A stretch of 44,594 nucleotides of DNA. Origin: Candidatus Wolfebacteria bacterium RIFOXYD12_FULL_48_21. Its GTDB lineage: Bacteria > Patescibacteriota > Minisyncoccia > UBA6257 > UBA9933. Positions 5,882-44,594 of the stretch are shown here, piece after piece. The notes below the pieces were generated by a model. That model searched no databases, had not been told where the DNA came from, and saw only the letters and a list, made by a program, of their open reading frames with translations. A program made the translations under genes and the position numbers. The stretch lies in NCBI GenBank assembly GCA_001793945.1, contig MGIW01000002.1:1-44594 (forward strand), written 5' to 3'. Numbering within the stretch: the first letter of the stretch is position 1; each line of letters starts with the position of its first letter.

Positions 5882-5990
5882 GTGTCATTCCCGCCCGTTC
5901 GACAAGCTCAGGGTAAACATCCGGCGGGAATCCAGCATCCCGAAGATGGATTTCTCCGCCCACTGAGGACGGGAATGACAAAAGAATAAT
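5882..5990. repeat. Composite palindromic repeat
   Basis: TGTCATTCCCGCC ... GGCGGGAATCCAG and an outer GACGGGAATGACA, with the module GTTCGACAAGCTCAGGGT inside. This looks like one repeat inserted into another. Confidence 0.65.
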
Positions 5991-6001
5991 CGAGTGAGAA
6001 A

Positions 6002-6229
6002 ATGATCAAGATATACATAACAGTCAAGCCGAATGCCAAAGAAACAAAGGTGGAGCAGATAGGCGAAAAGGAATACAAGGTCAGCGTAAAGGCTACGCCT
6101 GTGCAGGGAAGGGCAAATATCGCGGTGGTAAACGCGTTGGCGGAATATTTTAAGGTGACCAAATCAGAGGTAAGTATTACCGGCGGTTATTTCGGGAAAA
6201 AGAAAATTGTTGAAATTGGATGGAACTAA
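6002..6229 (+). CDS. DUF167 / UPF0235 (YggU-like) protein
   Basis: 75 residues with the family pattern VKPNAKETKVE ... YKVSVKATPVQGRANIAVVNALAEYFKV ... VSITGGYFGKKKIVEI. The family is widespread and small; its function is not settled. The ATG follows a run of repeats with no Shine-Dalgarno site. The TAA stop lies inside the left arm of a perfect 52-bp palindrome. Confidence 0.88.
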   Translation: MIKIYITVKPNAKETKVEQIGEKEYKVSVKATPVQGRANIAVVNALAEYFKVTKSEVSITGGYFGKKKIVEIGWN

Positions 6230-6285: not shown

Positions 6286-7065
6286 TTACTGCTTTAATTT
6301 CCGTACGATAAGCGATACGGCGAACAAAGTAGTGCTGACGAGGATGAAGAGCGGTCCCGGCGAAACGGCAAACTGTTGGGAAAGGAGAACGCCGCCGGCG
6401 GCGGAAAGAACGCCAAAGAGAACGCTGGCAAGCATAAAGCCGTGCAAGCTGCGGCTGATGTTTTTTGCTGCGGCTGCGGGAATGATGACCAATGAGCCCA
6501 TAAGCAGTGCACCGACGAAACGGATGCCGAGCGCGATGGACAGGGCAAAAATGATTAGATATATAAAGTCGAGTGCCCGGTTTTTGACACCGATGGAGTG
6601 CGCGAGCTCTTCGGAGAGCATGCTGAGTGCCAGTTTTTTATGGATTGCAACGAGTGCCACAATAATACCGGTGGAAAGCAGGACGGTAGCAATCGACTCC
6701 ATGAGCCCAAGTGTTCCGATATCCCCAAACAAAGCTTCGAGGATCTCGTGCTCGGGAATGAACAGAATACCAAGTGCAAGGCTGGCGGTAAAAAATATTC
6801 CGACCAAGGTGTCGACGGGCAGTTCAGTCTGGTATTTCAAGAGCCAAATGCTGATCACTGCCAAAAAGAGCGTGGAAAAAGCCCCGACGAACGGATTGAT
6901 GTGAAATGCGAGGCCGAGCGCGATACCGGGCAAGGCAACATGGGAAAGTGCATCGCCAACCAGCGCCATGCGTTTAAGAATGACAAAACTGCCAAGTAGT
7001 CCCGCACTCGCGGCGACAAAGATCGAGGTAATAAATATCTGGAGGAAGGAAGTATCAATGGTCAT
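6286..7065 (-). CDS. Metal ABC transporter permease, ABC-3 family
   Basis: A 259-residue polytopic membrane protein with seven to eight hydrophobic helices. The start (SFLQIFITSIFVAASAGLLGSFVILKRMALVGDALSHVALPGIALG) is the typical N-terminus of ZnuB/MntC-like permeases, which form the channel of importers for Zn2+, Mn2+ or Fe2+. Its ATG overlaps the stop of the ATPase gene by 4 bp, so the two are one operon. No substrate-binding protein gene is adjacent; it must be elsewhere or the system is incomplete. The substrate metal cannot be told from the sequence. Confidence 0.92.
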   Translation of the reverse strand: MTIDTSFLQIFITSIFVAASAGLLGSFVILKRMALVGDALSHVALPGIALGLAFHINPFVGAFSTLFLAVISIWLLKYQTELPVDTLVGIFFTASLALGILFIPEHEILEALFGDIGTLGLMESIATVLLSTGIIVALVAIHKKLALSMLSEELAHSIGVKNRALDFIYLIIFALSIALGIRFVGALLMGSLVIIPAAAAKNISRSLHGFMLASVLFGVLSAAGGVLLSQQFAVSPGPLFILVSTTLFAVSLIVRKLKQ

Positions 7066-7781
7066 GATGCGGTGCGTTTATGTGAGTGGGGTTCCGTATG
7101 GGTGTGTGCATAAAATCCGCGCTCGCCGCCATAGAGCGATTGCAGATGTTCGGCCTGAAGTATTTCGCCGGGCGCGCCATAACACAATTTTTGATGGTTG
7201 AGGCACAATACATTGTTTGCGTACTGGTAGACAATATTAAGATCGTGCGAAATGAGCAATATAGTCAGATTGAGCGTTTTATGCAGGTGCGAGATCATTT
7301 TATAAATGGATTCCTGTCCGAAGATATCGACATCGGCGGTCGGTTCATCAAAAAGCAAAACATCGGGGTTGTCGAGAATGGACCAGCCGACCAAAATGCG
7401 CTGGCGTTGACCGACGGATATTTCGCCGAACCCTGATTTGAGGATCGAGGCATCGAGCTGGATATAGTTCAATATTTCGTGCACTTTTTCGGGTGTGGCG
7501 ACGGATCCGCGAAGTCGAAAAAACTCCTCCACGGTAAGTGGAACATCGGTTTCTATTTCCATGCGCTGGGGAACATAGCCGATCTTCATGTTCGGCGCCC
7601 ATTCTACAGAACCGGAATAGGGAGTAAGCCCAAGAAGGGCCTTGAAGAGAGTCGTTTTGCCCGCACCGTTCGGGCCGATGATCGCAAGCGTTTCGCCTTG
7701 CGCTACCGAGAAGGTAAGTTTGTCGACAATAGGCGAAGACGCTTTTCCGATCGTCAATTCGGTAACTTTTAGGATGTCCAT
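7062..7781 (-). CDS. Metal ABC transporter ATP-binding protein
   Basis: 239 residues. Walker A is GPNGAGKT (36-43), Walker B is VLLFDEP and the switch His is in LLISHDLN. The signature motif is ISVGQRQR rather than LSGGQ, still within family variation. The C-terminus carries several His residues (YAHTHTEPHSHK), which suggests metal sensing or binding, as in zinc transport ATPases. It powers the permease encoded next to it. On the minus strand an extended -10 (TGCTATACT) ends 9 nt before the ATG, so the leader is only a few nt and there is no Shine-Dalgarno site. Confidence 0.92.
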   Translation of the reverse strand: MDILKVTELTIGKASSPIVDKLTFSVAQGETLAIIGPNGAGKTTLFKALLGLTPYSGSVEWAPNMKIGYVPQRMEIETDVPLTVEEFFRLRGSVATPEKVHEILNYIQLDASILKSGFGEISVGQRQRILVGWSILDNPDVLLFDEPTADVDIFGQESIYKMISHLHKTLNLTILLISHDLNIVYQYANNVLCLNHQKLCYGAPGEILQAEHLQSLYGGERGFYAHTHTEPHSHKRTAS

Positions 7782-31561: not shown

Positions 31562-31589
31562 TTGACAAATCCTACAAATCATGTATAAT
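31562..31589 (+). promoter_or_regulatory. Promoter of cassette gene 1
   Basis: TTGACA, 16 nt, TATAAT (31584-31589) with an extended TG. Followed by the leader ACAAGGCCTTTCAC shared by the cassettes. Confidence 0.88.
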
Positions 31590-31656
31590 ATAAACATACA
31601 GTAAAAACAAGGCCTTTCACAAATAAATAACGCCGCAACACGGCAAGGAGAACACC

Positions 31657-32106
31657 ATGGTAAAGATCATCGGCCCGTTTCAGATCAACACCGCTGGCAA
31701 CCGCACGACTGAAGATGTTGTCGCAGCTGGCAATTATAGCTGGGCATCTGAAATAGTGAACGGGGTGAACTTCCCGATGCGCCCCATGCCCGAAGGGCTC
31801 CGCGAGATTGTTATCCTCGAGTTCGACCACCTCCCCACGCAGGATCAGATGTTGAGGGTAGTATCGGGGCAGGACTTGGATTTTCCCCGACATGAAGACG
31901 CGCTGTTCTTTGGCGAGCAGTATCCCGATGAACAGTGTAATGGCTCGATTGTATTCTTGCATGAGCCGTGGAAATGTTTGGGTGACGGTTCGTTTGTGCT
32001 GGTGCTCCAATGCGACAGCGCAGATAAGAAGCGCGGACTGGGATTGACCACAGTTGGTCTTATCGGAACGCGCAATCGACGCTTCGCCTTCGTCTGTAAA
32101 TCGTAA
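31657..32106 (+). CDS. Cassette protein 1 (unknown family)
   Basis: 149 residues, no signal peptide or membrane segment. It is one of four paralogues in this island. The family has a constant first part (NRTTEDVVAAGNYSW ... VNGVNFPMRPMPEG ... REIVILEFD ... EDALFFGEQYPDEQ ... IVFLHEPW), a variable stretch of 25-35 residues, and a constant end (RRFAFVCKS). Similar multi-copy proteins occur, as I recall, in other genomes of this radiation; no function is known to me. The gene has its own promoter, an AAGGAG site 6 nt before the ATG with a GCCG/CGGC hairpin just upstream, a hairpin overlapping the stop, and a terminator. Confidence 0.8.
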   Translation: MVKIIGPFQINTAGNRTTEDVVAAGNYSWASEIVNGVNFPMRPMPEGLREIVILEFDHLPTQDQMLRVVSGQDLDFPRHEDALFFGEQYPDEQCNGSIVFLHEPWKCLGDGSFVLVLQCDSADKKRGLGLTTVGLIGTRNRRFAFVCKS

Positions 32107-32122
32107 CCTACCTTGGTAGGTT
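32105..32122 (+). promoter_or_regulatory. Stop-codon hairpin of cassette 1
   Basis: AACCTACCTTGGTAGGTT, 8-bp stem, starts inside the TAA stop. Identical in cassette 4 and one base different in cassette 2. Confidence 0.7.
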
Positions 32123-32126
32123 GCAC

Positions 32127-32150
32127 GCCCCGCACATGCGGGGCTTTTTT
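32127..32150 (+). terminator. Terminator of cassette 1
   Basis: GCCCCGCACATGCGGGGC then TTTTTT. Confidence 0.9.
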
Positions 32151-32156
32151 ACGGCA

Positions 32157-32188
32157 TTGTCATTCCGGCGGAAGCCGGAATCCAGACC
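32157..32188. repeat. Palindromic repeat
   Basis: GTCATTCCGGCGGAAGCCGG followed by AATCCAGA. Confidence 0.7.
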
Positions 32189-32247
32189 CTCCCCCATGTG
32201 AAGCGCCATCCAAATACGCCATAAATGAGCGTTAGATTGCCAGGGTC

Positions 32248-32275
32248 TTGACAAATCCTGCAAATCATGTATAAT
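32248..32275 (+). promoter_or_regulatory. Promoter of cassette gene 2
   Basis: TTGACA, 16 nt, TATAAT (32270-32275); spacer nearly identical to cassette 1. Confidence 0.88.
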
Positions 32276-32342
32276 ATATACATACAGTAAAAACAAGGCC
32301 TTTCACAAATAAATAACACCGAGAAACGGCAAGGAGAACATC

Positions 32343-32774
32343 ATGGAAGCAAAAATTGTAGGATCGTTCCGGATTAACACCGCTGGCAACCGCACGACTG
32401 AAGAGGTCGTCGCCGCCGGCAACTACGACTGGACAAATGACAGGGTCAACGGGGAGAATTTCCCGATGCGGCCGATGCCCGAAGGGCCTCGTAAGATTGT
32501 GTATCTTGAATTTGAGGTTAATCCATATTTAGAGGAAAAAGTGCTTGTGGAAGCACAGCGTCAAGGGCTTGAGCGTCCTCTATACGAAGATGTACTGTTT
32601 TTTGGGGAGCAGTATCCCGAGGAGCAGCGTAAAGGGCCAATCGCATTTTTGCACGAACCATGGCATGGTTGGCGCGTGGGGCTTGGTCGCGATAAAGCGG
32701 GTCGCGGTCTGGGCCTGAACTACTTTGGCGGAATTTACCGCCGCCGATGCCGTTTCGCCTTCATTCTCCCGTAA
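32343..32774 (+). CDS. Cassette protein 2 (unknown family)
   Basis: 143 residues. The same architecture as cassette protein 1: INTAGNRTTEEVVAAGNYDW, NFPMRPMPEGPRKIV, RPLYEDVLFFGEQYPEEQ, FLHEPW, then a short basic variable segment (HGWRVGLGRDKAGRGLGLN) and the constant end CRFAFILP. It shares its leader, promoter and AAGGAG site with cassette 1, and its DNA flank upstream is also alike, which points to tandem duplication of a whole unit rather than of the coding part only. Function unknown. Confidence 0.8.
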   Translation: MEAKIVGSFRINTAGNRTTEEVVAAGNYDWTNDRVNGENFPMRPMPEGPRKIVYLEFEVNPYLEEKVLVEAQRQGLERPLYEDVLFFGEQYPEEQRKGPIAFLHEPWHGWRVGLGRDKAGRGLGLNYFGGIYRRRCRFAFILP

Positions 32775-32790
32775 CCTACCTCGGTAGGTT
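32773..32790 (+). promoter_or_regulatory. Stop-codon hairpin of cassette 2
   Basis: AACCTACCTCGGTAGGTT, overlapping the TAA stop. Confidence 0.7.
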
Positions 32791-32795
32791 GCACA

Positions 32796-32824
32796 CCCCC
32801 TCGCTATGCGAGGGGGCTTTTTTT
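32796..32824 (+). terminator. Terminator of cassette 2
   Basis: CCCCCTCGC / GCGAGGGGG around TAT, then CTTTTTTT. Nearly the same sequence terminates cassette 4. Confidence 0.9.
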
Positions 32825-32852
32825 GTCACGAACATAAAAAACTTGCTATACT
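32823..32852 (+). promoter_or_regulatory. Duplicated adk promoter driving the NlpC/P60 gene
   Basis: TTGTCA, 18 nt, TATACT with extended TGC; same sequence as the adk promoter at 38083-38112 apart from single bases. Confidence 0.75.
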
Positions 32853-32857
32853 AAAAC

Positions 32858-32899
32858 ATGTCTAAAACGAACATAGATCGCATGGCATATGGAAAATAA
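32858..32899 (+). pseudogene. Fragment of adk: promoter-proximal codons 1-10
   Basis: ATG TCT AAA ACG AAC ATA GAT CGC ATG GC matches the start of adk at 38118 base for base, then diverges and stops after 13 codons (MSKTNIDRMAYGK). It overlaps the start of the NlpC/P60 gene and may now act as a short leader reading frame. Confidence 0.75.
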
Positions 32900-35759
32900 A
32901 GTTGGCATTAAAAAGATGTTTTATATATTGGCAGTAAATGTATTTGCCCTGTCGGCGATGTTTATTGCTACGGATATCGCCCACGCGTTCGATTTTCAGG
33001 CGGACGACACAAGCAGGCAGGAAGATGCCTGTCTGAGTACTCCAGTGCAAATTGTTGGCGCTATTACGCCGGGGGACTTTGAACGATTTAGGGTCAAGGC
33101 AAGTACAGGGAATTCACAATTGATCATTCAGGAATATTCCGCGCCACCGGTTAGTTGGTGGGAATATGCTACAAATCAATGGGTTTCGGATAAACAGGCC
33201 ACAATTACCGAGGGCATATGGGAGTGGAGTGTTGAAGACTTTTCGTCGCCAGTTACATTTCAAGCAGACAGGTACTACATGTTTGCATTTTACCAAGGGA
33301 ATATTTGTGGGTTCAAAGGAACGAATACTACAATTGAAGGGATGCAATTTTATCGCCAGGGAGGAACTAGTGACTGGGTGCGGGATAATAGTATAGATAA
33401 TATTTGGTTTGAGATAAATGATGGGGGGCGATATTGGTCGACAATCAGCACTGTGCCGGAGGGTGTTTTGAATATACGGGAGAGTGCAGGCTTGAACGCA
33501 TTGATCATAAAAACATTGCCAATCGGGTGGGTGGTAAGGGTGTTGCAGACAGCTGATATAAGTAGGATGCCAATCGATGTTGACGGTCATCGCTGGTATC
33601 AAATACAGGATGTGTCCGATGGTTCTACGGGGTGGGCAGTCGCTGGCCCGGTCCAAGATGGACATCTTATGGCAGAATATCTGCCGTATGACTTCACAAA
33701 GCAGGCCGATCTTGAACAGGAGACAATCCGGCAGGTAAGTGTGGAAGATCGGCATATTTGTCCGATTGCTGACGGGCAATATATCGACGGACTCAATTTG
33801 AGGGTCTTTCTTGCCACAATTCCGGCGGGAGTATATGACACCATATATGTTAAGGCAGATTATGTGGCATATATATATCCATATGTCACCAAGATATACA
33901 CGAAAGACGGGTGGCAGTCGGTTGCGATGCAGATATCTACCGATAGAGGGAATACATGGAGTAATGTGAGTATGCCGTCAGGGTATCTTAGTGATGTGGA
34001 TGTACGGTTTTTACTTCCTCGTGCGTATATTTTTGACGGATCCGATATATATTTTCAAAACGACTGGGGCGACAATTCTCGCGGGATTTTTATAAGAACA
34101 TCGGAGGTATGTTCTTCATTATCCGAGCGCGTAACAGCCATTACATCGATGCAACAATTTGCGGCCGACGGTACAACGCTTATTGGCGAACATGCCACGA
34201 CCACAGACTCTACTGTTGTATTTAAAGCGGTCGTAGACGCGTCTGGTGCCGAGCCGGCTACCGTGCAGGTGGAGCTACGCCGTACGGAAGAGCCGTTTAC
34301 GGGGATTAGCGATGGGGGAATTCTTCAATCCGACTTGGTTGCGCCAGGTACGCAAGTTGCGCTTACCCGTACAAACCTCATTGATGGCGCGTATCATTGG
34401 CGCGCCCGAACCCTTAATGATCAAGGCAACTCTTCGGATTGGCAGGAGTTCGGCATTCCCGGCGGTACTGATTTTATTGTAGATTTGCCATTATCATACA
34501 AAGCTGCCAATTTGGCGAAGCAGTTGGTGAATCAGAATTATTTATGGGGTGGAAAAGGTTGGGACGCAAATGATCGCTTGTTTGTGGATACGGACACAGT
34601 AAAAACAGGATACAATTATTGGACTGACGCAGGAAAGATTGCGTTTGACGATGGCCTTGATTGTTCTGGTCTTGTGGCGTGGTCATATAACCATTCTTAT
34701 GCTCCCAGCAAATTTTTTAATCAAAATTATATTGGAGAGCCGAATGCGAATAAGCAGTATTGGCATAATATGCAAGCGACAACGACATCAGATGTTGGAT
34801 TACAACCGGGAGATTTATTGTATTTTGATCCAAGGACATATCATGTAGACACTAAAACGTGGACACTTGGCTCTGATGGAATAATGGATCATGTTGCAAT
34901 GTATATTGGGGGCGATACTAGTAAAAATGTCATACATGCAAGATCTAAAACATTCGGGATTCAATATGCAAGCATCAACGCCCTTTTAGGTGACAGTGCA
35001 AACGGCTTCGTTGCATTTGGTCGCCCTAAAAATGCCACCATCGCCATGTCAATTACAAAACATTCCCCAATACATTTTTCCGTTATCGATCCAGATGGCA
35101 ATACGATTTCTGATAGTACTGGTATTGCAACAGATGAAGAATACATACAGGAATCTGGCGACCTCACCTATGCTACCATGGGTATGGATGCCAACGGATA
35201 TCCGGAAGATGTGATATATTCCCCCATACTTAAACAAGGCATATACAAAATCAGTGTATCCCCGATGGCAAGCAGCACTTCAAATCAAACATATTCACTC
35301 GACTTTACTGCGGGGAGTACTACAATAGTTCTTGCCCAGAATATGCCATTAAGCCAGATCCCCTCTGAAGGTTACGGCATCACAGTATCAGCAGTTGGGG
35401 CTATAAGTACTTTTATTCCAGTATCGGTTGATATTAAGCCGGGTAGTTATCCAAACAGTATTAATCTCGGTTCAAACGGTGTAATACCGGTCGCAATATT
35501 CGGCTCAGCAACTTTTGATGTGCATCAAATTGATCCTACGACAATCAAACTCGCCGATGCATCGATAAAAATAAAAGGCAACGGGCAGCCGATGGTAAGT
35601 TATTCCGATGTAAACGGAGATGGGATTACTGACGCAATCGTCCAAATAACAACCCAAGCCTTACAGCTAACAATAGGAGATACGATGACGAATCTGGAAG
35701 GGAGCTTGATAAGCGGAGACATATTTAAGGGCTCAGATTCAATCAATATCGTACCATAA
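32889..35759 (+). CDS. Secreted multidomain NlpC/P60 protein
   Basis: 956 residues. A signal peptide (1-33, cleavage near AHA-FDF) sends it out of the cell. In order: an N-terminal beta domain, an SH3b-like domain (about 180-260, VLNIRESAGLNALIIKTLPIGW), a middle beta region, an NlpC/P60 cysteine peptidase (about 535-710) with Cys592 (LDCSGLVAWS), His668 (DHVAMYIG) and His683, and from about 847 a DIKPGSYPNSINLGSNGVIPVAI domain with an EF-hand-like DVNGDGITD. It should cut peptidoglycan peptides or related bonds. Its promoter and leader are a copy of those of adk. AT-richer than neighbours, which suggests transfer. Start ATG 32889 overlaps an adk fragment. Confidence 0.85.
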   Translation: MENKVGIKKMFYILAVNVFALSAMFIATDIAHAFDFQADDTSRQEDACLSTPVQIVGAITPGDFERFRVKASTGNSQLIIQEYSAPPVSWWEYATNQWVSDKQATITEGIWEWSVEDFSSPVTFQADRYYMFAFYQGNICGFKGTNTTIEGMQFYRQGGTSDWVRDNSIDNIWFEINDGGRYWSTISTVPEGVLNIRESAGLNALIIKTLPIGWVVRVLQTADISRMPIDVDGHRWYQIQDVSDGSTGWAVAGPVQDGHLMAEYLPYDFTKQADLEQETIRQVSVEDRHICPIADGQYIDGLNLRVFLATIPAGVYDTIYVKADYVAYIYPYVTKIYTKDGWQSVAMQISTDRGNTWSNVSMPSGYLSDVDVRFLLPRAYIFDGSDIYFQNDWGDNSRGIFIRTSEVCSSLSERVTAITSMQQFAADGTTLIGEHATTTDSTVVFKAVVDASGAEPATVQVELRRTEEPFTGISDGGILQSDLVAPGTQVALTRTNLIDGAYHWRARTLNDQGNSSDWQEFGIPGGTDFIVDLPLSYKAANLAKQLVNQNYLWGGKGWDANDRLFVDTDTVKTGYNYWTDAGKIAFDDGLDCSGLVAWSYNHSYAPSKFFNQNYIGEPNANKQYWHNMQATTTSDVGLQPGDLLYFDPRTYHVDTKTWTLGSDGIMDHVAMYIGGDTSKNVIHARSKTFGIQYASINALLGDSANGFVAFGRPKNATIAMSITKHSPIHFSVIDPDGNTISDSTGIATDEEYIQESGDLTYATMGMDANGYPEDVIYSPILKQGIYKISVSPMASSTSNQTYSLDFTAGSTTIVLAQNMPLSQIPSEGYGITVSAVGAISTFIPVSVDIKPGSYPNSINLGSNGVIPVAIFGSATFDVHQIDPTTIKLADASIKIKGNGQPMVSYSDVNGDGITDAIVQITTQALQLTIGDTMTNLEGSLISGDIFKGSDSINIVP

Positions 35760-35772
35760 ACGGCATCATATT

Positions 35773-36345
35773 ATGACAAAAAAAATAATCATTGTATTGA
35801 TAGTAATAACGGCATTCGCATTGGCAGGTGCTATATATGGATATCGACATATACAGCGAAGTTTAATTAGAATTCAGCCTATCGGCGCAACCTCGACTCC
35901 GGTACAAACAACTAACGCAACGACTACGATTGCAACCACTACTCAAACGAATGACTATTCCGGCATGAAGCGTTACCGAAACGAGGAATGGGGTTTTGAG
36001 TTCTGGTATCCGGAAGGATGGGAGATGAAAGATAAAACAGGCAGTGCTCCTCAAAGTAGTTTGTATTTGAGTGTTAATTTTCTTAGCGATGATACGCTGA
36101 CGATGGATTCTTTCTCAATAAGCATCGTAACCCCGCAGTTTGCTGATTATGCGGCGCAAGGTGAACATAGCTCCCAAATAATAGTATCAGATATTATTGG
36201 TAGGACTTATCAATATACTCTTGAGGGGGTATCATCTATTACCGTAGATTTGCCCCTTCATGGAAAAAAAATGATAGTTTCTGCTCAAAAGCAACATGAA
36301 AAAGAGTTGTATAAGGTTCTTTCCTCATTCAAATTCCTCGAATGA
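35773..36345 (+). CDS. Membrane-anchored protein with PsbP-like domain
   Basis: 190 residues. One N-terminal membrane segment (about 4-24), a Thr-rich linker (ATSTPVQTTNATTTIATTTQT), then a beta domain beginning MKRYRNEEWGFEFWYPEGWEM, a pattern typical of PsbP/DUF1795-like domains often seen in envelope proteins of this radiation. No catalytic residues are evident. It starts 13 bp after the NlpC/P60 gene and is probably co-transcribed. Base composition is as AT-rich as that gene, so both may have arrived together. Confidence 0.6.
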   Translation: MTKKIIIVLIVITAFALAGAIYGYRHIQRSLIRIQPIGATSTPVQTTNATTTIATTTQTNDYSGMKRYRNEEWGFEFWYPEGWEMKDKTGSAPQSSLYLSVNFLSDDTLTMDSFSISIVTPQFADYAAQGEHSSQIIVSDIIGRTYQYTLEGVSSITVDLPLHGKKMIVSAQKQHEKELYKVLSSFKFLE

Positions 36346-36572
36346 ACACTCCGTTAAGCATCCACCTCAACAGCATCAACCTCGGATCAAATGGCGTCGT
36401 GCCAGTTGCGATCTTCGGCTCTGCAACTTTTGATGTGCATCAGATAGACTCAGCCACAATCAAACTTGCCAACGCCTCAGCAAAGCTCAAAGGCAATAGC
36501 CAACCTATAGCAAGTTATTTAGATGTGAATGGAGACGGGCATATCGACATCATTGTGCAAGTATCAACATAG
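36342..36572 (+). pseudogene. Partial copy of the C-terminal domain of the NlpC/P60 protein
   Basis: 76 codons from ATG 36342 read HLNSINLGSNGVVPVAIFGSATFDVHQIDSATIKL ... DVNGDGHIDIIVQVST (given here as parts), closely matching residues about 855-935 of the upstream protein, and stop short of its last 25. There is no signal peptide and the start overlaps the previous stop. It is a decayed duplicate of the domain, or the remains of a second large gene. Confidence 0.7.
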
Positions 36573-36643
36573 GCATTGCGACTAATCCAAGCTGATGGTC
36601 CGCGAATACGAATAATGCAAGAAACGTAGAAAAACGAAAAAAG

Positions 36644-36670
36644 AAAAGCCCTGCATTTGCAGGGCTTTTT
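36644..36670 (+). terminator. Intrinsic terminator
   Basis: AAAAGCCCTGC / GCAGGGCTTTT around ATTT. A short piece of A-type repeat (GCGAATACGAATAATGC) lies just upstream at 36602. Confidence 0.88.
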
Positions 36671-36678
36671 AGTTGAAT

Positions 36679-36708
36679 GTCATACCGGCGAAGGCCGGTA
36701 TCCAGAGT
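36679..36708. repeat. Palindromic repeat
   Basis: GTCATACCGGCGAAGGCCGG followed by TATCCAGAG. Confidence 0.7.
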
Positions 36709-36731
36709 CAAGTAACCCGAGCCTGTAGGTC

Positions 36732-36759
36732 TTGACAAATAGAATAAACAGTATATAAT
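36732..36759 (+). promoter_or_regulatory. Promoter of cassette gene 3
   Basis: TTGACA, 16 nt, TATAAT (36754-36759); the same spacing as the other cassettes, with a diverged spacer. Confidence 0.87.
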
Positions 36760-36811
36760 ATAAATATACAGTTTTAAACAAGACCTTTCACAACACTATA
36801 AGGAGAAAGTC

Positions 36812-37270
36812 ATGGAAAAGAAATCGTTTGTGATTGATGTTAACGGTAGGCGTCCCGGAAACCGCACGATTAAGGAAAAGATTGTCGCCATCGTCACCGG
36901 CCAGTACGGCCTGGGAGACACCCGCATCAACCGGAAAAATTTCCCAATGCGGCCCATGCCCGCGGGGCCGCGCAAGATCGTTCTCGTGGACTATGACCGA
37001 GCCATCAGCGCGGATGAAGTCCTCGCGGAAGCCGAGCGGCGGGGGCTGGAACGCCCTCGGCACGAGGATGCGTTGTTCTTCGGCGAACAGCATCCCGAAG
37101 AGCCGTGCAGAGCCCCAATCGTCTTCCTTCATGAGCCGTGGAGGGGAAGCGTATTGTTCCTCGGATACGGAGGGGGAAGCATGCGTAACTACAATGTGAA
37201 CATCTCTCTCAGCATTGATGAAGGTGCTAAATGGGGTGCTGGTTGTCGTTTCGCCTTCGTTCAAAAGTAA
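36812..37270 (+). CDS. Cassette protein 3 (unknown family)
   Basis: 152 residues, the most divergent of the four. It keeps NRTIKEKIVAIVTGQYG, NFPMRPMPAGPRKIVLVDYD, AEAERRGLERPRHEDALFFG, and IVFLHEPW, then has the longest variable part (RGSVLFLGYGGGSMRNYNVNIS) before the constant end CRFAFVQK. The leader is shortened (no GCCG/CGGC hairpin) but AAGGAG still lies 6 nt before the ATG. After the stop, AGTAAC / GTTACT replaces the usual hairpin. Function unknown. Confidence 0.78.
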   Translation: MEKKSFVIDVNGRRPGNRTIKEKIVAIVTGQYGLGDTRINRKNFPMRPMPAGPRKIVLVDYDRAISADEVLAEAERRGLERPRHEDALFFGEQHPEEPCRAPIVFLHEPWRGSVLFLGYGGGSMRNYNVNISLSIDEGAKWGAGCRFAFVQK

Positions 37271-37311
37271 CCCGATTCGCCATCCGGCGGACTAAGTTAC
37301 TGCGCTTTATC

Positions 37312-37339
37312 GGGGCACGCTTGCGTGCCCCATTTTTTT
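37312..37339 (+). terminator. Terminator of cassette 3
   Basis: GGGGCACGC / GCGTGCCCC around TT, then ATTTTTTT. Confidence 0.9.
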
Positions 37340-37377
37340 ATCACAAATCTTTGCACGCGGTGGGTATCAAATGTATT

Positions 37378-37443
37378 GTCACCCAGAACTTGGTTCAGGA
37401 TCTGAGTATAAAAATGCGGATCCTGAAACAAGTTCAGGATGAC
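37378..37443. repeat. Palindromic repeat (GTTCAGGAT type)
   Basis: GTCACCCAGAACTTGGTTCA ... AACAAGTTCAGGATGAC, with an inner GGATCTGAG ... CGGATCC. Confidence 0.65.
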
Positions 37444-37495
37444 ATAATGCGGAATCTGTAGTATTAGCGGCAAATAGAGAGCCTTTCTAAAGGGC

Positions 37496-37523
37496 TTGAC
37501 AAATACAACAAACAGTATATAAT
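37496..37523 (+). promoter_or_regulatory. Promoter of cassette gene 4
   Basis: TTGACA, 16 nt, TATAAT (37518-37523). Confidence 0.88.
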
Positions 37524-37591
37524 ATAAATATACAGTTAGAAACAAGGCCTTTTAAAATTATATAACGCCGCAAAACGACAAGGAGAACATC

Positions 37592-38035
37592 ATGGTAAAG
37601 ATCATCGGCCCGTTTCAGATCAACACCACCGGCACCCGCACGACTGAGGAGGTTTTCGCAGCTGGCAAGTATGATGGGAAGAATAACATGGTCAACGGGA
37701 AGAATTTCCCGATACGGACCATGTTTAAAGGGACTCGCGAGATTGTTCTCGTAGAGTTCGATCGCGACACAAGTTCCGAAGAAGTATTAGCGGAAGCGAA
37801 GCGCTGGGGGCTGAAACGCCCTCGGTGCGAGGATGCGCTGTTTTTCGGAGAGCAACATCCCGAGGAGCAATGCACTGCCCCAATCTTGTTTCTTCGTAAG
37901 CCCGCTTGGTGGCGCGCATGCGTCCGCCTGTTCGTGCTGGTGCTTCGCTGTGATGGCGGGAGGCGTACTCTGTGCTTAAACCCCTTTGACGGTGGTTGGC
38001 ATCAGCGGTGCCGGTTCGCGTTCGTCCGCCCGTAA
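37592..38035 (+). CDS. Cassette protein 4 (unknown family)
   Basis: 147 residues. Its first 14 residues are almost those of cassette protein 1 (MVKIIGPFQINTTG). Conserved: RTTEEVFAAGKYD, NFPIRTM, REIVLVEFD, EEVLAEAKRWGLKRP, EDALFFGEQHPEEQ; the FLHEPW motif is FLRKPAWW. The variable part is RACVRLFVLVLRCDGGRR and neighbours, ending CRFAFVRP. It sits directly before adk; its terminator overlaps the -35 of the adk promoter. Function unknown. Confidence 0.8.
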   Translation: MVKIIGPFQINTTGTRTTEEVFAAGKYDGKNNMVNGKNFPIRTMFKGTREIVLVEFDRDTSSEEVLAEAKRWGLKRPRCEDALFFGEQHPEEQCTAPILFLRKPAWWRACVRLFVLVLRCDGGRRTLCLNPFDGGWHQRCRFAFVRP

Positions 38036-38051
38036 CCTACCTTGGTAGGTT
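38034..38051 (+). promoter_or_regulatory. Stop-codon hairpin of cassette 4
   Basis: AACCTACCTTGGTAGGTT, overlapping the TAA stop. Confidence 0.7.
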
Positions 38052-38056
38052 GCACA

Positions 38057-38085
38057 CCCCCTCGCTATGCGAGGGGCTTTTTTTG
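38057..38085 (+). terminator. Terminator of cassette 4
   Basis: CCCCTCGC / GCGAGGGG then CTTTTTTT; the T run overlaps the -35 of adk. Confidence 0.9.
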
Positions 38086-38117: not shown

Positions 38118-38813
38118 ATGTCTAAAACGAACATAGATCGCATGGCCGTCGTATTCTATGGACCTCCCGGGTCCGGAAAGGGTACGCAGGCGCAACTGTT
38201 GGCAGATACGCTTCACTTGTTTCATTTCGATACCGGGAGTCTTTTGCGAAACATATTGAACGATCCGAAATACAAGGACGACGAAAACATCCATCGGGAG
38301 CGGGAATTGAACGAATCGGGAAAGCTGAACACGCCATCATGGGTGCTGGATGTGGTCACCAAGCAGGTCGATGACCTCGCAAAGCTCGGCCAGTCCATCG
38401 TATTCAGCGGTTCGCCGCGGAATGTATTTGAAGCCTTTGGCGAAGAAGGCCGCGTGGGCTTGCTCGATTTTTTGGTGGAAAAATACGGAAAGGAACATGT
38501 GCATATTTTTTACTTGCAAATACCCGACGAAACGACCGTCCAGCGCAACACGCACCGGACCATTTGTTCGGTATGCAAAAAGCCGTTGCTCGATATGGAA
38601 CACAAGCCGACTACCTGTCCGTTTTGCGGAGGAGCGGTGGAACACCGTGTTGACGACACCACGGAAGTCATCAAACAACGGTTAAAGGAATACCACGAAC
38701 GCACCGAGCCAGTCATTGCGGAATCGGTCAAACGGGGGTATAAAGTGATAAAGCTCGATGGCACGCCCGCTCCATACAAAATACACGAAGCAATCATGAC
38801 GCATTTTAAGTGA
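38118..38813 (+). CDS. adk: Adenylate kinase, zinc-lid form
   Basis: Converts ATP + AMP to 2 ADP. 231 residues. The P-loop GPPGSGKG is at 15-22 and the LID carries four Cys (150, 153, 167, 170 in CSVC ... CPFC), the zinc-binding form. The first 8 residues (MSKTNIDR) precede the Met9 where most adenylate kinases would start; translation from the first ATG fits the leaderless promoter, but Met9 remains possible. In most bacteria adk follows secY directly; here the cassette island lies between. Confidence 0.95.
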   Translation: MSKTNIDRMAVVFYGPPGSGKGTQAQLLADTLHLFHFDTGSLLRNILNDPKYKDDENIHRERELNESGKLNTPSWVLDVVTKQVDDLAKLGQSIVFSGSPRNVFEAFGEEGRVGLLDFLVEKYGKEHVHIFYLQIPDETTVQRNTHRTICSVCKKPLLDMEHKPTTCPFCGGAVEHRVDDTTEVIKQRLKEYHERTEPVIAESVKRGYKVIKLDGTPAPYKIHEAIMTHFK

Positions 38814-44196: not shown

Positions 44197-44594
44197 TTTC
44201 TATATTTCAGTTTTAATATATTAAATTACTTACTAAATATCCTAATATTAATCATTTATAAAATATAGTACATCTTTGGGTTACTAATCTCCATGTACCA
44301 AGTGTTATAACAGATTCAGTGTTACTAATATGAACTGGTTAAAGGGAATGAAAATATTAGGTAGGCATCTCTAGATATTGATCTGGTGCTGGCAACAAAA
44401 GATAAATATCAAACAAGCCAACAGATCTTGCCGACGGTGCACACGGGAACGGATGTTCCTGTGCGCTCGAGCAGCCAGTGTCCTTGCGAATTACCCACTT
44501 GTTTTAGGCAAGGACATTTGGCGGTTTTGCATGTCGGAATTCGTTAATGAATTCGTTCGGGCTTTTGCCCTGCAATCCGCAGTGGAGTAGATCG
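44197..44594. other. Unassigned right end
   Basis: An AT-rich stretch (44197-44370) with no coding signal, then a GC-richer part with a hairpin (CACGGGAAC / GTTCCTGTG, near 44438-44460) and short frames of at most 70 codons without a start signal. No tRNA or known RNA is recognised. The next gene may lie beyond the window. Confidence 0.4.

Follow-up and report, generated by a model that had tools for sequence, protein, structure and literature searches.

Gene cassettes between secY and adk

The window analysed here, a stretch of 44,594 nucleotides, comes from a genome of the Patescibacteria (G000; 878,700 bases in 6 contigs, about 97% complete) that is closest in synteny to Candidatus Wolfebacteria records. 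Its secY-adk interval holds four paralogous genes on the forward strand (31657-32106, 32343-32774, 36812-37270 and 37592-38035), which are very probably of diversity-generating retroelement (DGR) origin and remote targets, or variable proteins (VPs), of such an element. In DGRs, a reverse transcriptase (RT) with the accessory protein Avd makes a cDNA copy of the template repeat (TR) RNA that carries random errors at adenines. This copy then overwrites the corresponding variable region (VR) in the 3'-terminal part of a target gene, beside a cis site that in other DGRs takes the form of a hairpin immediately after the stop codon.

The predicted proteins are 149, 143, 152 and 147 amino acids long, and those of cassettes 2-4 share 44-57% identity with that of cassette 1; cassette 3 is the most divergent and cassette 2 has a shortened VR. 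An earlier, sequence-only reading of this DNA had described four such paralogues, each with its own promoter, a common leader, an AAGGAG site and a strong terminator, and every one of these elements was recovered. A promoter scan of the region returned exactly four matches at 12/12 positions to TTGACA-16-TATAAT, all on the forward strand and one ahead of each cassette (31562-31589, 32248-32275, 36732-36759 and 37496-37523). The leader AACAAGGCCTTTCACA follows on the same strand, exact in cassettes 1 and 2 (31606-31621 and 32292-32307), with one mismatch in cassette 3 (36777-36792) and with two in cassette 4 (37541-37556), against a chance expectation of 0.31 matches in the whole window. Rfam detected only rRNA in the window, so the leader corresponds to no known RNA family. 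An AAGGAG site precedes all four start codons, and GC-rich terminators with T-runs close the forward-strand units at 32127-32150, 32796-32826, 37312-37341 and 38058-38084.

The same reading had placed a hairpin at every stop codon. An 8-bp inverted repeat of the form AACCTACC-NN-GGTAGGTT, a candidate DGR target site to which no strand is assigned, does overlap the stop codon in cassette 1 (32105-32122, AACCTACCTTGGTAGGTT), cassette 2 (32773-32790, AACCTACC-TC-GGTAGGTT) and cassette 4 (38034-38051, AACCTACC-TT-GGTAGGTT), but cassette 3 has none. The description as an array of four likewise needs amending: the four cassettes are present, but two unrelated genes, encoding an NlpC/P60 protein and a PsbP-like protein, break the array between cassettes 2 and 3, and a family profile search found a fifth, longer copy on a different contig. 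Ahead of this fifth copy (L039) and of its counterpart in the sister species (L008) stands a leader of related sequence (AGGCCTT), together with a TTGACAAAT promoter, which indicates that the leader predates the array.

Template repeats and adenine-directed variation

Comparison of the cassette family with Pfam, NCBIfam, PHROGs and PDB sequences gave nothing meaningful. A match to OspC3 was weak (E 0.19) and was taken as chance, leaving no match to a known enzyme family, and a phage origin was set aside because no relatives of the family occurred among the viral contigs or phage records searched. Of 380 genomes sampled from the phylum, 47 matched a broad family profile, with at most five matches per genome, template repeats counted; the similar multi-copy families that the sequence-only reading had mentioned for the radiation thus do exist.

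The relatives carry the evidence on mechanism. In Wolfebacteria GWB1_47_1 (L006), the 3' end of the family gene is repeated about 370 bases downstream, where it reads WQNPNGNLNVLVLNCDDRNRNLNLNYFDDSWNQRCRFAFVRK, with asparagine at the positions where the gene varies. Gene and repeat differ there at 24 positions, 22 of them repeat adenines, and two further loci behave alike (19/20 each in L009 and L010). Ten distinct related loci have a TR downstream of a family member; in total, 175 of their 190 TR-VR mismatches coincide with adenines of the TR, and the VP and TR are mostly adjoined by genes for Avd and a DGR-type RT. The congeneric L006 encodes bAvd at 5923-6228 (PF22296 confirmed) and an RT at 6318-7307 (RVT_1 confirmed) that carries GVGLPLGNLTSQ and the DGR motif GLPLGNLTSQ. 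Judged by the TR adenine signature in these relatives, which is the defining one, the cassette family is a DGR target family. A remote-copy test for trans-diversification in one genome (G423) found one copy adenine-biased (p 0.001) and two not clearly so (p 0.07 and 0.12).

Conservation along the four proteins is strongly non-uniform, with a variable segment before the terminal RFAF motif as previously described, and on alignment with these templates this segment is the VR. All VR tests used the L006 template, which is the TR of another species; they are numerous pairwise tests with uncorrected p values, among which the adenine biases of cassette 4, the sister-species cassette (L011) and the fifth copy would survive correction. 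The VR of cassette 4 (37907-38032, forward strand) matches DGR templates over its full length and differs from the L006 TR at 25 of 33 adenines, compared with 18 of 92 other bases (p 1.3e-8). The corresponding mismatches are 26/33 and 14/92 in L011 and 15/33 and 3/92 in the fifth copy, while cassette 2 shows a nucleotide-level bias at p 0.002. The constant part, used as a control, has no adenine bias (p 0.7). At the codon level all four cassettes pass the adenine test: amino acids are changed at TR codons with and without adenine, respectively, in 18/21 and 7/20 cases for cassette 1, 16/19 and 5/17 for cassette 2 (p 0.001), 14/19 and 6/17 for cassette 3, and 15/21 and 2/20 for cassette 4.

Silent sites were compared as well. 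Between cassette 4 and L011, divergence at third positions falls from 46% in the constant part to 21% in the VR (p 0.007); at first and second positions it is higher in the VR, 35% compared with 18% in the constant part. Such a pattern is what a single template would leave after overwriting both VRs with mutagenesis at adenines. Pairs among cassettes 1-3 show no such reset, which, together with their indels, suggests that these cassettes are older or derive from another template. Values of dN/dS between 0.08 and 0.28 indicate purifying selection on the constant part.

An AlphaFold2 model of the cassette 4 protein reached pLDDT 82.5 and pTM 0.80, and the core of the L006 protein was modelled at pLDDT about 92. 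The best PDB matches of the L006 model were the C-terminal domain of Bdellovibrio Bd2740 (TMt 0.54) followed mostly by C-type lectins, all at E >0.1. From these models a C-type-lectin-like fold is likely for the family, and the C-type lectin is the usual DGR target fold (PMC8144416). Codons with a TR adenine occupy alternating positions on a predicted strand, which would place the variable residues on one face. No signal peptide is evident by eye in the cassettes.

The sequence-only reading had proposed a set of binding proteins with differing partners, and neither of the two findings it named as refuting, a match to a known enzyme or uniform conservation across the variable segment, emerged. 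Its constant frame with a variable, probably binding, face stands as the best reading, while binding itself and the difference in partners are what we infer from that arrangement. What it missed was the mechanism, adenine-directed mutagenic retrohoming, so that its interpretation is supported in part.

Template, slot history and competing explanations

No family TR was found in G000 by DNA or profile search, even at E 10, and none was found in the sister genome (G386); both genomes are at least 97% complete. A third congener (G385) has a family TR adjoining its RT, and in another (G384) the whole family is absent. The DGR link of the window array consequently rests on relatives. With no family TR or RT found in G000, the array is classed as DGR target genes and not as a complete DGR, and, with no family template in G000 or G386, as orphaned in the assembly.

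G000 nevertheless holds two DGRs, both serving other proteins. The one on contig 6 (L043:7719-10250) is intact, with a VP of a different target family, a TR, bAvd and an RT, and its 13 TR-VR mismatches all lie at adenines. In the second, on contig 5, 20 of 23 mismatches do so, and the RT gene is split just before the GIPIGNLTSQ motif by a (GA)n tract (L044:8773-8843). The tract measures 71 nt in G000 and 35 nt in the sister species (L099:1471-1505) and is out of frame in both, and the sister's TR-VR mismatches are still adenine-biased (22/23). Such a tract could be a phase-variable hypermutation switch, decay or an assembly error; a literature search on a (GA)n hypermutation switch of this kind found nothing.

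In the sister genome, whose flanking genes are about 96% identical to those of the window, the same secY-adk slot contains a single cassette beside a transposase-like gene. The first 29 bases of adk (38118-38146) recur on the forward strand 3' of cassette 2 (32859-32887), a scar of a recent duplication of a segment. The duplicate is identical to the genome's own adk and unlike that of the sister, which indicates that segmental duplication went on after the species split. Two further observations concern this region. The right end of the window (44424-44594) matches, at 95-99% identity, the transposase-like gene upstream of the sister's cassette (L011:3893-4912). The stretch at 32889-36572, inside the array, comprises the NlpC/P60 gene (956 amino acids, with an SH3-like region), the PsbP-like gene and a short open reading frame that repeats part of the NlpC protein's C-terminus (SINLGSNGV.PVAIFGSATFDVHQID); all three are missing from the sister's slot.

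Several results weigh against a DGR origin of the array. Besides the missing template, the nucleotide-level adenine bias is weak in cassette 1 (p 0.03) and absent from cassette 3 when compared with the L006 TR, and the VRs of cassettes 1-3 contain indels. Cassette 1 has insertions relative to the congeneric TR, its VR being either degenerate or derived from another TR, and cassette 3 can be aligned to that TR only with gaps. Foldseek gave no significant match against the PDB, the C-type lectin matches included. The stem of the stop-codon hairpin is not GC-rich and encloses a loop of 2 nt, while phage-type stems are GC-rich, 7-10 bp long and carry GRNA loops.

One rival account dispenses with a DGR and sees the cassettes as ordinary paralogues that encode binding proteins under diversifying selection. 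Amino acid change is indeed clustered in one segment, and no TR or RT adjoins the cassettes. Yet that change follows the adenines of another genome's TR, silent divergence is reset in the VR, and relatives possess full DGRs, and we consider this explanation highly improbable. Decay into functionless relics of a lost DGR is a better candidate, as it would account for the VR indels of cassettes 1-3 and for a congener without the family, but the four open frames, the perfect promoters and the purifying selection on the constant part speak against it and make it unlikely. A greater, still doubtful, chance attaches to continued rewriting in trans by a TR and RT missing from the assembly or carried on another replicon. 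An assembly of six contigs at about 97% completeness would allow it, as would the full-length VR of cassette 4 with a hairpin beyond its stop, the nearly intact VR of the fifth copy with its 3/92 non-adenine mismatches, and the two other DGRs in G000. Against it stand the want of a family TR in two nearly complete genomes, the third congener's TR that adjoins its RT, and the lost VR register in cassettes 1-3.

We favour DGR-derived targets whose rewriting has probably stopped. Each gene would encode a small protein in which the core is constant and the C-terminal face is randomised, the latter probably forming a C-type-lectin-like surface that binds ligands. VP genes would have been duplicated from promoter to terminator as cassettes at the secY-adk site, cassette 4 retaining a full-length DGR-derived VR and cassettes 1-3 being older and degenerate. 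The array would then most likely be an orphaned repertoire, presumably expressed, in which rewriting either has ended or depends on unassembled sequence. A more tentative possibility is that rewritten targets, either once the retroelement was lost or independently of its loss, multiplied by duplication as complete expression units, and that selection maintains them as an archive of DGR-made binders, a fixed repertoire of differing faces in one conserved slot.

Comparison with known DGR systems

The mechanism is already known; what is new is the family member and its setting, an array of targets, each presumably expressed from its own promoter, whose template is not in the assembly. The results assign a function class to a widespread patescibacterial protein family without a Pfam entry. 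They also illustrate a possible fate of template-less DGR targets, a presumably expressed array in one genome versus one cassette in the corresponding slot of the sister species, and they make fixed binding-protein repertoires in reduced, probably host-dependent bacteria testable.

As in the target of the Bordetella phage BPP-1 DGR (PMC3240598), the VR of the cassettes is 3'-terminal and is followed, in cassettes 1, 2 and 4, by an inverted repeat that is a candidate target site. The BPP-1-type stem is GC-rich with a 4-nt GRNA loop (PMC3240598), whereas the AACCTACC/GGTAGGTT stem here encloses two loop nucleotides and is missing from cassette 3. Also comparable are the remote variable proteins of cyanobacteria, scattered paralogues that a single DGR diversifies (PMC7517822). 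Those are C-type-lectin proteins, many with other domains (PMC7517822), while the cassettes encode a single small domain and find no TR match in their genome.

DGR clade 2 of Roux et al. (2021) is confined to Patescibacteria, and its targets, whose VR is C-terminal, typically have no transmembrane or other conserved domain that can be recognised (PMC8144416). The cassettes resemble these targets in their C-terminal VR and lack of recognisable conserved domains, a likeness drawn from the description of that clade, and their want of an evident signal peptide agrees with it. They differ in that the assembly contains no TR for them and that all four, each with a promoter of its own, occupy a single chromosomal slot. 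In Treponema denticola, targets lie far from the core DGR, and those in isolates without RT and TR were read as remnants (PMC4891356). The Treponema targets belong to a different protein family and have predicted lipoprotein signals (PMC4891356), unlike the cassettes, in which no signal peptide is evident, but the two systems are alike in possessing targets that are remote or orphan (PMC4891356).

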